From Flavobacterium hungaricum (GTDB lineage Bacteria > Bacteroidota > Bacteroidia > Flavobacteriales > Flavobacteriaceae): a stretch of DNA of 64,000 bases. The stretch spans positions 1,116,001 through 1,180,000 of the forward strand of contig NZ_PRDM01000002.1 of assembly GCF_015182285.1 (NCBI RefSeq), read 5' to 3'. This document shows, in pieces, positions 1-3,510 of this stretch. Within the stretch, counting starts at the first letter, position 1, and each line of letters starts with the position of its first letter. The position numbers were made by a program, and so were the translations under genes. The notes under the pieces are model-generated. The model did no database searches. It was given only the letters and a program-made list of their open reading frames with translations, and was not told the origin of the DNA.

Positions 1-497
1 CTTCTAATATTGATACCTGTATTTCTTGGATTTGAAGAATAAAGTTGTACTGAAGGAACTAATTCTTTAATACGATTCACATTAAAAGCTCCTGTTTGTT
101 CTGCTTGTTTTCCTGTAATTACAGAAATAGCAATAGGCACATCCTGAACTTTTTCGATTCTTCTTCTTGAAGAAACAACAACTTCAATAAGTTCATTTTC
201 TTCTTTAAGAGCAACTTGAATTGGATTTACCGGAATGGCAGTTAATTCAATTTCAGTTGTTTTATAACCAACGTATTGAATCAAAAGAGTCAATGGTAAT
301 CTTCCTTTAGAATCAATTACAAATTTACCGCTGTTGTCTGTAATCGCGCTGTTAGTAGTTCCTTTAATCACCACGTTTACGGCTTCTAAAGGTATATTTT
401 CGCTTGTTGTAACTACGCCTTCAACGTTTTGCGCAAATGAAATAGAGAAAGTTAAAAAGAATAATAGTGTAAAGATATTTTTTATAGATGTTTTCAT
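1..497 (-). CDS. TonB-dependent outer-membrane receptor, N-terminal part (cut by window edge)
   Basis: Translating the minus strand from the ATG at 497 gives an open frame to the window edge (165 complete codons). It starts with a signal peptide ending in SFAQ, continues with a carboxypeptidase-regulatory-like beta-sandwich of about 75 residues (pattern GVV...PLEAVNVVIKGT...TDNSGKF...YVGYKT), and then enters the TonB plug (IPIAISVITG-like segment, then ELVPSVQLYSSNPRNTGINIR). Such receptors take up substrates across the outer membrane using TonB energy. The substrate cannot be told from this part. The upstream Rrf2 regulator and Cys-ended small ORF suggest a link to sulfur or cysteine supply, which is inference. 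The barrel lies outside the window. Confidence 0.93.
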   Translation of the reverse strand, partial: MKTSIKNIFTLLFFLTFSISFAQNVEGVVTTSENIPLEAVNVVIKGTTNSAITDNSGKFVIDSKGRLPLTLLIQYVGYKTTEIELTAIPVNPIQVALKEENELIEVVVSSRRRIEKVQDVPIAISVITGKQAEQTGAFNVNRIKELVPSVQLYSSNPRNTGINIR

Positions 498-549
498 TTT
501 TATATTAAGTATATGTGATTAGTAGAATTTAAAATTATTTTTTTTAAAA

Positions 550-657
550 TCAACACATACACATTACAAATGAATTGCTTTTAACAGCTGCTAAAAGTCT
601 TGTTTGTTTGTTTTGCAAAATTTTTGATACACCAGATGGACTAAAATGTACTTTCAT
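550..657 (-). CDS. 35-aa putative leader peptide ending Met-Cys-Met-Cys
   Basis: A small ORF of 35 codons starts at ATG 657 and stops at TGA 550-552. It begins MKVHFSPSGVSK and ends SFVMCMC. It lies between the Rrf2-type regulator and the TonB receptor, 52 bases before the receptor start, and behind a TATATTTG promoter box. The closing Cys codons, position and size fit a cysteine-sensing leader peptide: ribosomes stalling at Cys codons when Cys-tRNA is scarce would change expression of the downstream genes. No clear intrinsic terminator is visible between this ORF and the receptor, so any mechanism could be translational or Rho-dependent. It could also be a small protein in its own right. Function is inferred. 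Confidence 0.6.
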   Translation of the reverse strand: MKVHFSPSGVSKILQNKQTRLLAAVKSNSFVMCMC

Positions 658-695
658 GTTAAAACTTTTGTAAATGGTTAGTTAAATATTTTGTG

Positions 696-733
696 CAAAT
701 ATAAATATTAATTCTATCGATTTACTAGGAATT
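696..733 (-). promoter_or_regulatory. Promoter and possible Rrf2 operator before the MCMC leader ORF
   Basis: On the minus strand TATATTTG (703-696) matches the Bacteroidota -7 box TAnnTTTG and sits 38 bases before the leader ATG. Just upstream, 710-733 has inverted ends AATTC...GAATT around a 14-base core. This is where a regulator covering the -33 region would bind. No good -33 TTTG is seen. The operator role is a guess from position next to the Rrf2 gene. Confidence 0.4.
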
Positions 734-746
734 AAAAAATATTTTT

Positions 747-1160
747 TTATTTTTTTACTAATGAGGCGATTGTGATGCCCTCCATAGCTTTTAAAGTTTT
801 GTCACGAATAAGCATTAAACCGTGGCGCAGACTGCATTCGTCCTCGGTTTTGCAATCAGAGCAAGGTTCGTAGAAGTTCAAAGAAGCACAAGGTAAAAGT
901 GCAATTGCACCGTCAAATAATCGGTGAATTTCTGCTAGAGTAATATCATTTTTTGATTTTATCAGATAATAACCGCCAAATTTTCCCTGCTTACTGCTAA
1001 CAAAACGACCGCGTTTTAGATCTAGTAAAATCTGTTCTAAAAACTTTTTAGGAATATTGGCTCCGTCAGCAATTTCTATCGTTCTAGAAATGTGATTTTC
1101 GTCTTGTTCTGCTAAATAAAGTAAGGCCTTAAGGGCGTATTTTGCTTTATGTGATAACAT
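747..1160 (-). CDS. Rrf2-family transcriptional regulator
   Basis: A 137-residue protein with the Rrf2 winged-helix pattern: MLSHKAKYALKALLYLA at the start, then a recognition region with IPKKFLEQILLDLKR and the wing GKFGGYYL. Cysteines at about 91, 100, 103 and 109 form the C-terminal cluster that in IscR/NsrR-type members binds an Fe-S cluster and in others senses thiols or cysteine. It is transcribed in the same direction as the MCMC leader ORF and TonB receptor that follow it, with an 89-base gap that holds its own promoter box. In Bacteroidota such regulators often sit by sulfur-assimilation genes; that this one does is inference because the window ends first. Confidence 0.88.
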   Translation of the reverse strand: MLSHKAKYALKALLYLAEQDENHISRTIEIADGANIPKKFLEQILLDLKRGRFVSSKQGKFGGYYLIKSKNDITLAEIHRLFDGAIALLPCASLNFYEPCSDCKTEDECSLRHGLMLIRDKTLKAMEGITIASLVKK

Positions 1161-1243
1161 CTATATTGAATTGTAAATTGTAAAAGTAAGATTTTTTAAA
1201 CTTGAAACCTAAAACAAAGAAAACTTGAAACAAAATTATTGTT

Positions 1244-2062
1244 TTACCAGCTGCCTCCAGAGCCTCCTCCAGAGAACCCGCCGCCGCCAAATCCACCGCC
1301 GAAACCGCCTCCGCCACCAGATGATCCGCCTCCAAAACCTCCGAAACCGCCGCCGCCGCTTCTTCCAAGATTACTTAAAATAATAACATCAAGAAGACTT
1401 GGTCCGCCGCCACTGCTGTTTCCAGAGTTACCGCCTCCGCGTTTGTTTCTAGAAAGTAAAATCAATATGATGACAATAATTACGATAAAAGGCAGGATAG
1501 GAAAACTTTGTCCTTTACTTTTTTTGCGTTCGCTCTTGTATTTGCCTTTAAAAACATCAAATAAGGCATCGGCACCTTTATCTAATCCTTTATAATAACT
1601 TCCTGCTTTAAACTCAGGAATAATAATATTTCGGGTTATCTCACCGCCAATTCCCGCAGTCAGCCTGTCTTCTAAACCATAACCAGGCGAAATCCAGATT
1701 TTTCTTTCGGTTTTGGCCAATAAAATCAAAACGCCGTTATCTTCTTTTGCCTGACCGATTCCCCATTCCTGCGCCCATTTTGGCGTAAGGATTCCGATGT
1801 CTTCTCCTTTTAAACTTTCGATAGTAATAACGACAATTTGAGTTGAGGTTGAGTCAGAATAACGAACTAGTTTTTCTTCCAGCTGCGTTTTTTCAGAAGC
1901 ACTCAAAACATTCGCGTAATCGTAAACAGAAGTCTGAAAACTTGGTTTTTTCGGAATATCAAATTGTGCAAAAACACTTGAAAAGGTAAAAAAAGCGATT
2001 AACAGAAAGGATAATTGAAAGATTCCTTTAGAATTGAAAGTTTTAAGAGTGGAAATTTTCAT
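1244..2062 (-). CDS. TPM-domain (YgcG-like) membrane protein with Gly-rich tail
   Basis: A 272-residue protein. An N-terminal signal peptide ends near VFAQ, followed by a TPM domain at about residues 40-165 (VYDYANVLS, QIVVITIESLKGEDI, WGIGQAKEDNGVLILLAK, GYGLEDRLT), a transmembrane segment near 192-210, and a C-terminal tail almost entirely Gly and Ser ending in GGSW. This is the usual YgcG layout. The family is envelope-anchored with no settled biochemical role, and is commonly paired with LemA, as here. It starts three bases after the stop of the preceding TPM gene, so the two are co-transcribed and probably translationally coupled. Confidence 0.9.
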   Translation of the reverse strand: MKISTLKTFNSKGIFQLSFLLIAFFTFSSVFAQFDIPKKPSFQTSVYDYANVLSASEKTQLEEKLVRYSDSTSTQIVVITIESLKGEDIGILTPKWAQEWGIGQAKEDNGVLILLAKTERKIWISPGYGLEDRLTAGIGGEITRNIIIPEFKAGSYYKGLDKGADALFDVFKGKYKSERKKSKGQSFPILPFIVIIVIILILLSRNKRGGGNSGNSSGGGPSLLDVIILSNLGRSGGGGFGGFGGGSSGGGGGFGGGFGGGGFSGGGSGGSW

Positions 2063-2559: not shown

Positions 2560-3144
2560 TTAGAATTTTACTTCAACTGGTTTATCTGCTCCAGTAGAAG
2601 CTTCAAAATATGGTTTTTCTTTGTATTCACTCAAGAACCAATTGTTAGGAATCTTTAACACATAACCATTGTAAACTTGAACAGACTCATTAAAACGAGT
2701 TCTTGCAGTAAGAATCTGGTTTTCAGTACTTGCTAATTCGTCTTGTAATTTTAAGAAATTCTCGTTTGCTTTTAAAGTTGGATATTGTTCAACAGAAACC
2801 AATAATCTTGATAATGATGAAGATACACCGCTTTGCGCCTGATTAAATTCTTTTAATTGCTCAGGAGTTACGTTACTTGGATCAATTGTTACCGAAGTAG
2901 CTTTTGCACGAGCTTCTATTACTGCTGTTAAAGTCCCTTTTTCAAAATCTGCAGCGCCTTTTACCGTGTTTACTAAGTTCCCGATAAGATCGTTACGTCT
3001 TTGGTAAGCTGTTTGAACATTTCCCCATTCTTTATTTACTGCTTGACTGTGCTGTAATGCAGTGTTTTTAATTCCAATTGACCAAAAAGCAATTATCGCA
3101 ATCAGTGCAACAATAATTCCTACAGGGATTAACCATTTTTTCAT
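2560..3144 (-). CDS. lemA: LemA family protein
   Basis: A 194-residue protein of the usual LemA length. It has a single N-terminal membrane helix (KKWLIPVGIIVALIAIIAFW) followed by the long helical bundle: WGNVQTAYQRRNDLIGNLVNTVKGAA, then the helix ending QYPTLKANENFLKLQDELASTENQI, and YNGYVLKIPNNWF near the end, which is characteristic. The family sits in the inner membrane with a mostly periplasmic or cytoplasmic helical domain. Its role is unclear. It leads the lemA-TPM-TPM cluster. Confidence 0.95.
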   Translation of the reverse strand: MKKWLIPVGIIVALIAIIAFWSIGIKNTALQHSQAVNKEWGNVQTAYQRRNDLIGNLVNTVKGAADFEKGTLTAVIEARAKATSVTIDPSNVTPEQLKEFNQAQSGVSSSLSRLLVSVEQYPTLKANENFLKLQDELASTENQILTARTRFNESVQVYNGYVLKIPNNWFLSEYKEKPYFEASTGADKPVEVKF

Positions 3145-3177
3145 ATTAGTTTAATTTAAGTTTATTTCAATTTTTAA

Positions 3178-3510
3178 TTACAATTCGTTTTTGATGTCGT
3201 TTAATTGTGTTTTTATGGATTCTAATTTACGGATTATTTCGAATTTATCTAATGTTTTCTTCTGACCTTCCTTTAAGTGAATTTTAGCTCCCTCGAGTGT
3301 AAAGCCTCTTTCTTTTACCAAATGATAAATCAGCTGTAAATTAGTAATATCATCCGGCGTGAACATCCTGTTTCCTTTGGCATTTTTTTTCGGTTTCAGG
3401 ATATCAAATTCACTGTCCCAAAATCGTATTAATGATGCATTGACATTAAAAGCTTTGGCAACTTCGCCAATGCTGTAATATCTTTTGTCTTTGGAAAGTT
3501 CAATATGCAT
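3178..3510 (-). CDS. MerR-family transcriptional regulator (small)
   Basis: A 110-residue protein with an N-terminal MerR helix-turn-helix: YYSIGEVAKAFNVNASLIRFWDSEF, then the wing LKPKKNAKGNRMFTPDDI and a helix with LVKERGFTLEGAKIHL. After residue 85 only a short coiled dimerisation helix remains, with no effector domain and no metal-binding cysteines. This small form is common in Bacteroidota. It is followed at 33 bases by lemA and preceded at 49 bases by the M23 peptidase gene, all on the minus strand, so it could control envelope genes. The target is unknown. Confidence 0.9.
   Translation of the reverse strand: MHIELSKDKRYYSIGEVAKAFNVNASLIRFWDSEFDILKPKKNAKGNRMFTPDDITNLQLIYHLVKERGFTLEGAKIHLKEGQKKTLDKFEIIRKLESIKTQLNDIKNEL

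Follow-up and report, generated by a model that had tools for sequence, protein, structure and literature searches.

A conserved Cys-ended leader before a TonB-dependent receptor of Flavobacterium: a probable cysteine-sensing translational attenuator behind a presumed Rrf2-type operator

Between an Rrf2-family regulator gene and a TonB-dependent receptor gene of Flavobacterium hungaricum lies a short open reading frame whose last codons read Met-Cys-Met-Cys, which raises the question of whether translation of these codons controls the receptor and, if so, by what route. The stretch of DNA analysed, hereafter the window, comprises 64,000 nt (contig NZ_PRDM01000002.1, positions 1,116,001 to 1,180,000), and the locus lies at its beginning, with the features below given in window positions.

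747..1160, minus strand: Rrf2-family regulator gene, 137 aa, four clustered Cys (Pfam PF02082)
709..734, minus strand: operator-like inverted repeat TAATTCCTAGTAAATCGATAGAATTA (site 1), putative binding site of Rrf2 (conservation 5' of the leader)
696..703, minus strand: TATATTTG, TAnnTTTG-type -7 promoter box (position 38 nt 5' of the leader ATG)
550..657, minus strand: leader ORF, 35 codons, MKVHFSPSGVSKILQNKQTRLLAAVKSNSFVMCMC-stop, ending VMCMC-stop (ORF reading, conservation in relatives)
549..562, minus strand: hairpin 5' arm, the leader Cys1-Met-Cys2-stop codons (predicted pairing)
509..523, minus strand: hairpin 3' arm (site 2), ending 11 nt 5' of the receptor ATG (near-invariant block, predicted pairing)
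1..497, minus strand: TonB-dependent receptor gene, start part, running off the window (PF13715, PF07715, receptor families)

The leader, its neighbours and its conservation

The elements on which the original prediction was built are in place: the 35-codon ORF ending Met-Cys-Met-Cys, the promoter box assigned to it, the receptor downstream, and the Rrf2 neighbour with four clustered Cys. The regulator matches the Rrf2 domain with 112 bits (PF02082, E 2.9e-32, cut-off 30; Pfam search of the 747-1160 product), and its Cys group, PCASLNFYEPCSDCKTEDEC, is a cluster shared with the Rrf2 paralog of the genome's own sulfur cluster. Against NCBIfam it scores above the cut-off of rrf2_super and below that of CymR (NF047409, 50.9 vs 195 bits), which rules out the CymR equivalog identity. 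A TAnnTTTG box lies 34-43 nt 5' of the leader ATG in 73/77 loci. The receptor starts at 497, and its complete 848-aa frame was read in the same genome (L009); the 165-aa part within the window carries the Carboxypeptidase-regulatory-like domain (PF13715), with Plug (PF07715) just below the Pfam cut-off, and the full protein has matches to solved receptors and to families of TonB receptors, the latter under the equivalog or subfamily cut-offs. Control had been predicted to extend to whatever follows; beyond position 1 the receptor does continue, but the genes inspected 3' of it in L009 (237 bp, then a 181-aa gene) include no obvious sulfur operon. Between the Rrf2 gene and the next upstream gene (window 1199-1240) there is also a small interspersed repeat, whose copies at several places in the genome are 84-96% identical and often occur in close pairs.

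Conservation of the MCMC end had been set as a test on which the idea should stand or fall, and it was borne out from both flanks of the leader. In 150 genomes of the genus, 52 orthologs of the Rrf2 regulator were found (74-100% identical); the receptor is the next gene in 44 of them, and a short ORF with Cys among its last residues occupies the same place in all 44. No MCMC-type tail was found at that place in the other eight Rrf2 loci or in two loci of a 52% paralog; two of the loci without such a tail hold other ORFs, an unrelated one of 19 codons ending CFMCPRA-stop (L089) and a distant one ending CKTVC-stop (L101). From the receptor side, named genomes were scanned with an alignment of five receptors, and the best 80 of at least 527 confirmed places were taken, their titles being nearly all Flavobacterium, with a few Flavobacteriaceae, Flavobacteriales or Chitinophagaceae (L228). 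Among these best 80, a Cys-ended ORF or its visible end precedes the receptor in 79/79 readable loci: 77 were parsed by script, one (L205, with a displaced receptor start) was read by eye, and one (L216) shows only the end of the ORF, at a contig edge. The 80th locus, L228, was left out, its sequence being cut before the receptor start.

Rrf2 lies directly upstream in 75 of the same best 80 loci. Three of the remaining five (L164, L216, L228) begin too near the receptor to show it, and in the other two (L220, L221) the receptor and the leader are present and no adjacent Rrf2 gene was found. Because these two loci keep the receptor with its leader, the leader travels with the receptor rather than with Rrf2. 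Outside the genus, 6 of 299 genomes of the family had a receptor match, and no MCMC leader was found at the orthologous receptors of four of these (L146-L149). The exact MCMC-stop DNA pattern occurs at 43 places in 41/150 genomes, 33 of which are this leader and 10 lie elsewhere, so that the pattern is not exclusive to it. In each of the 77 loci parsed by script the reading frame is uninterrupted, with flanking spacers whose lengths are free modulo 3. The leader is a genuine ORF, and its conservation is strong and beyond chance.

A cysteine tail that can pair with the receptor start region

Across 74 distinct leader peptides of 27 to 46 residues, Cys fills 166/592 positions in the last eight residues and 2/1,954 in the remainder. 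Every peptide has at least one tail Cys and the count runs from one to four, in tails such as MMCMC, MMCMCW, IMCMC, MCICC, MCMCMC and MCMCTC, and also MCSMCR, MMYMCM, MMCMS, MCMWW and MCMCC. Codons of one amino acid, cysteine, are clustered at a fixed place, as in ribosome-mediated amino-acid attenuators. The body behaves differently from the tail: in 83 related pairs, 106 of its 461 single-base codon changes are synonymous (0.230 vs 0.215 expected), and its differences are spread over codon positions 1, 2 and 3 as 256, 222 and 258. This near-neutral synonymous share, together with the even codon positions, means that the body is not under selection for its amino acid sequence; it drifts like neutral sequence while frame and tail are kept, as is expected of a leader read for its last codons and not of a functional peptide.

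Methionine and cysteine are both soft-metal ligands, and the nascent MCMC peptide might instead sense copper or another soft metal, in the manner of CruR, whose uORF precedes a TonB copper transporter. Bordetella does have a copper-sensing uORF ahead of a TonB receptor (PMC9426467); against such a role here stand the variable number and spacing of the tail Cys (one to four; MCSMCR, MMYMCM, MMCMS, MCMWW), the neutral body, the lack of a match to DUF2946 or any other Pfam family, the absence of CXXC and RAPP from the window peptide, and an operator motif that points to sulfur genes (below). We consider metal sensing very unlikely.

What the tail codons do offer is complementarity to the start region of the receptor. 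UGU-AUG-UGY-(UGG)-stop makes up the 5' arm of a predicted hairpin, running from the G that precedes the first Cys codon through the stop codon, a length matching the footprint expected of a ribosome paused on the first Cys codon. Complementary to it is a block 3' of the leader stop, CTACTAATYACATATA, which is nearly invariant in 75 aligned sequences and supplies a 3' arm spanning about -12 to -26 of the receptor start region, within a stop-to-start spacing of 45-59 nt. The window stem has nine pairs (554-562); its TGA-type stop weakens the upper part, and other sequences with a TGA stop likewise lose the upper stem. In F. johnsoniae, according to PMC6847099, start regions are without Shine-Dalgarno sequences and tend to lack structure from -20 to +20, and the authors there discuss bS1 near -12 to -15.

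In a sample of 38 sequences (every second of 76), pairing between tail and start region exceeded that of shuffled spacers in 38/38, with a mean of 15.0 pairs vs 4.45 expected. When single loci were compared with 1,000 shuffled duplexes each, at most 26 shuffles were as good in 11 of 14 loci (10/1000 for the window), and pairing was weak in the other three (L163, 101/1000; L209, 58/1000; L206, 357/1000). With the structure fixed, 90.6% of 1,049 cells were paired, as compared with at most 56.8% when one arm was slid. Compensatory changes were not above shuffles, a single pair having changed on both sides, in two sequences, and the arms hardly vary. RNAalifold run on the whole alignment gave just five consensus pairs in a different register, and the hairpin structure was for this reason taken from averaged single-sequence pairing probabilities.

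The complementarity is in register with the codons, and the two can be set against each other. The second position of the Cys1 codon forms a G.U pair in 73/75 sequences and an A-U pair in 2; A would pair better there but reads Tyr. Among the pairs not involving a Cys codon there is a similar wobble pair, where A makes the stop codon TAG, and here A is found in 18/75 (Fisher p 1.6e-4, a nominal value, the sequences being related). A U stands opposite position 2 of the Cys2 codon in 28 sequences, and A occurs at that position in 0/28. Cys is therefore probably kept by codon, and Met in MCMC mainly by base pairing; pairing also accounts for the middle Met codon, which is largely retained although a Cys sensor has no use for it. 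Leaders of the MetY type carry Val where MCMC has this Met, and the leader may sense Met as well as Cys.

The attenuator of the original prediction survives in one part and not in another: a Cys-codon leader is there, but it is not of the terminator type, its tail pairing instead with the region where receptor translation starts. No terminator-like site was found between leader and receptor (0 in window 400-800), and the lack of a hairpin followed by a U run in this interval rules out a transcription attenuator with an intrinsic terminator. A search of window 1-1300 against Rfam 15 to E 10 returned seven weak matches, each below its gathering score.

A hairpin containing the leader stop codon could also serve translational coupling, in which the ribosome ending the leader would melt the hairpin, leader translation would promote receptor translation, and Cys limitation would lower it. 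The position of the stop codon inside the 5' arm and the mere 45-59 nt to the receptor start suit this reading; it leaves the concentration of Cys codons in the arm unexplained, and an uptake receptor shut off by Cys shortage would make little physiological sense. We regard coupling as quite unlikely.

The reading that we favour, and consider probable, is a Cys-sensing translational attenuator behind an Rrf2-type operator. RNA polymerase would start at the TATATTTG promoter, probably under repression by the Rrf2 protein encoded next to it, acting on the 709-734 palindrome, and one transcript would carry the short leader ORF followed by the receptor gene. With Cys-tRNA plentiful, the leader would be finished, ribosomes would leave, the hairpin would re-form and the receptor would be poorly translated. 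With Cys-tRNA short, a ribosome would stall at the first or second Cys codon and cover the whole 5' arm, so that the start region would open and the receptor would be made. Rrf2 would thus set transcription, and Cys-tRNA translation.

An operator-like motif shared with sulfur genes

The repressor layer of this scheme is suggested by the palindrome TAATTCCTAGTAAATCGATAGAATTA, which lies just 5' of the -7 box and is conserved upstream of the leader. A profile made from site 1 of 69 loci was run over the genome's own 19.8-kb sulfur cluster (L145), which holds a homoserine dehydrogenase, a homoserine O-acetyltransferase-like gene behind a SAM riboswitch, a Cys/Met PLP enzyme and the Rrf2 paralog, along with two TauE/SafE genes, PAPS-reductase-domain genes, a CysN-type GTPase (by position) and a sulfite reductase. 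The best score, 4.8, fell before a TauE/SafE gene and the second, -8.6, just before the Rrf2 paralog; the next was -19.1. L103 and L104 have similar sites in the interval separating the Rrf2 paralog from cysH, and L088 and L099 have them 5' of a porin-like gene. The two-layer control envisaged at the outset, repressor plus Cys codons, gains support from this recurrence of the palindrome before sulfate-assimilation genes; motif and leaders fit it, and Rrf2, its paralog or both may bind.

A hand-made pattern, built from the window, TauE and Rrf2-paralog sites and matching the first two with zero mismatches by construction, was found at 13 places in the genome of the window vs 6 for the reversed control. 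Independent support for the motif is provided by the 69-locus profile, L256, L259 and the sites in L103 and L104. Six of the 13 places are inside genes and seven outside, three of the seven heading a Cys-bearing leader. A version of the pattern with wrong spacing was dropped, its 24 matches being fewer than the 48 of its reversed control.

The three Cys leaders headed by pattern sites are that of the window (MCMC) and those at C6:133941 and C1:1288700. The C6 site is followed by MKNYSRNMITSFNCSFAMCCMMNHVMKWR, a terminator-like hairpin, a second leader MRTNRNINIMMRCCLRKIPC and a gene of the Glu/Leu dehydrogenase family; the C1 site heads MSNKRSKFNFRKDRMQANMRMCCCCCCCCC, 53 nt before a PhyH gene, and the leader before PhyH in this genome, CCCCCCCCC-stop, has relatives in two other genomes (L280, L294). 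Because the operator-like motif heads three Cys leaders in one genome, the combination of repression and Cys codons is a repeated design and not a single accident.

The wider surroundings of these leaders can be described as follows. On C6 (L267, about 2941-3231), an operator-like site, a Met/Cys-rich leader and a terminator-like hairpin are followed by a second leader ending MMRCCLRKIPC-stop. On C1 (L268, 2219-2311), the leader behind the operator-like site ends in nine Cys codons, 53 nt before the PhyH-family gene, and CDP-alcohol transferase-, GtrA- and DUF4833-family genes come next. On C5 (L145, 2957-3058), a leader ending CVCVC-stop is followed by a terminator-like hairpin and a 66-aa ORF.

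Cys-ended leaders also precede sulfur genes in other genomes: a CVCVC-stop leader and a terminator-like hairpin stand before a Cys/Met PLP enzyme in L237. The CVCVC pattern matched 15/150 genomes at 15 loci, in seven of which (L230, L231, L232, L236, L237, L242, L243) a terminator-like hairpin is followed by a small ORF or a PLP enzyme; the other 8/15 look like chance. A search for five Cys codons plus a stop matched 81/150 genomes and is consequently not specific; among 30 of its loci there are nine small ORFs, four of them outside a longer frame (L278, L280, L287, L291), and L294, a relative of L280 and L291, was scored by the script as inside an upstream-open frame. One of the four, MKIVTNITANTNTTKCCMMCCMQNPAESRMLCCCCC-stop (L278, genome G024), ends CCCCC-stop, 103 nt before a tetrapyrrole methylase gene.

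The receptor itself stands alone at its locus, with no obvious sulfur operon. The motif and the neighbours of orthologous receptors outside the genus point to sulfur (chromate-transporter family and TauE/SafE in L146, O-acetylhomoserine sulfhydrylase in L148), and the receptor may import a sulfur source. Two of the loci outside the genus, both of genus g114, carry a second tRNA-Cys-like element with anticodon GCA (L147 10665-10736, minus strand; L148 1132-1203, plus strand), placed 115 nt 5' of the receptor in L147 and 5' of a sulfhydrylase-receptor pair in L148. The element has U1-A72 followed by C or A, and the standard copy elsewhere in these genomes carries G1-C72 and U73, U73 being the Cys identity base of the tRNA. 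It occurs in 2/6 genomes of g114, precisely the two with the receptor, and may work within the leader by mimicking tRNA-Cys.

Site 2, which forms the 3' arm, is similar to site 1, with the palindrome's right half missing; its score of 2.7 on the site-1 profile is the second-best in the 19-kb own locus (L009). The receptors of L147-L149 have an operator-like site of the CCTAT..ATAGG kind just before their start, with no leader, and in L089 a site-2-like sequence survives where leader tail and receptor are gone. Because of L089, site 2 may act as DNA in its own right; plausibly, an operator close to the receptor start was later recruited as a hairpin arm. Taken further, these observations would favour a function of the nucleic acid alone, in which site 2 would be a second Rrf2 operator, paired with site 1 on the other side of the leader, and the presence of an ORF with Cys codons would be incidental. 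Set against that are the Cys codons kept where A would pair better, the enrichment of Cys in the tails, the frame open in 77/77 script-parsed loci between spacers free modulo 3, and the missing half-palindrome of a site 2 that is complementary to the tail; we hold this alternative to be unlikely. A pure DNA or RNA function, coupling and copper sensing all rank below Cys-codon attenuation. Beside a non-Flavobacterium Rrf2-receptor pair (L146, 2895-2951 of the reversed locus) there is a perfect palindrome, ATTATCCCTACC-AAAT-AGGTAGGGATAAT, accompanied by a TAnnTTTG box and an 18-codon ORF free of Cys (MKSPLTSSLYKQAPIRIR-stop) before the receptor.

From Cys-codon attenuation at the receptor a broader picture can be drawn, whose chances we judge to be evenly balanced: the sulfur regulon of Flavobacterium would be under double control, by Rrf2-type operators and by Cys-ended leaders (MCMC, CVCVC, MCCMM, nine Cys), and the Cys codons before the TonB receptor would at once be the sensor and, as the arm closing a start region free of Shine-Dalgarno sequence, the RNA switch.

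Relation to known leader systems

The principle, leader-peptide attenuation, is known; what is new is the setting, namely Bacteroidota, no Shine-Dalgarno sequence, and a TonB receptor as the target. In the open-licence full texts searched we found no report of a cysteine-sensing leader in Bacteroidota; the nearest is F. psychrophilum, for which PMC9723704 reports signs of attenuation by leader peptides ahead of operons for amino-acid biosynthesis. If true, the present reading would show translation attenuation to be workable in a phylum without Shine-Dalgarno sequences, would give an orphan TonB receptor a likely sulfur-related role, and would make the operator motif with its Cys-ended leader a sequence handle with which the sulfur regulon could be mapped in a large environmental genus.

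In the classic translation attenuators, the erm leaders, a ribosome stalled on the leader releases the following gene's start region from a hairpin. Stalling would act in the same way on the receptor start region, with lack of charged Cys-tRNA as the signal, whereas the erm signal is a drug. For the repressor layer, the closest likeness is CymR, an Rrf2-type protein that in Firmicutes is the master regulator of cysteine metabolism: here too the regulator is of the Rrf2 family, and the shared motif links it to sulfur genes, although it scores 50.9 bits against the CymR cut-off of 195.

The CruR uORF before bfrG is copper-responsive, encodes a DUF2946 protein with CXXC and with RAPP at residues 139-142, and acts through Rho-dependent termination (PMC9426467). 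With that system the present leader shares a Cys-bearing uORF ahead of a TonB-dependent receptor. A CruR/DUF2946 identity is ruled out, the leader peptide matching 0 Pfam families and containing neither CXXC nor RAPP.

Polycysteine short ORFs of mycobacteria were reportedly described by Canestrari et al. in 2020. These ORFs have Cys codons near their end and a proposed Cys-responsive control (PMC13236596 and PMC9094748), and are thus alike in being short, upstream and Cys-ended, with a Cys response proposed. Membership in the mycobacterial class of leaderless polycysteine sORFs was rejected for the window ORF, which shows neither the leaderless start nor the consecutive Cys run. The mycobacterial ORFs are leaderless, whereas the Flavobacterium leader has a box 38 nt before its ATG, if this box is the promoter; and in contrast to their Cys run the window tail reads Cys-Met-Cys, with some relatives ending MCMCC or MCICC. 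The leader described here further differs from the mycobacterial ORFs in belonging to Bacteroidota without Shine-Dalgarno sequences, in having a TonB receptor as its target, and in the Rrf2-like operator that stands in front of it.
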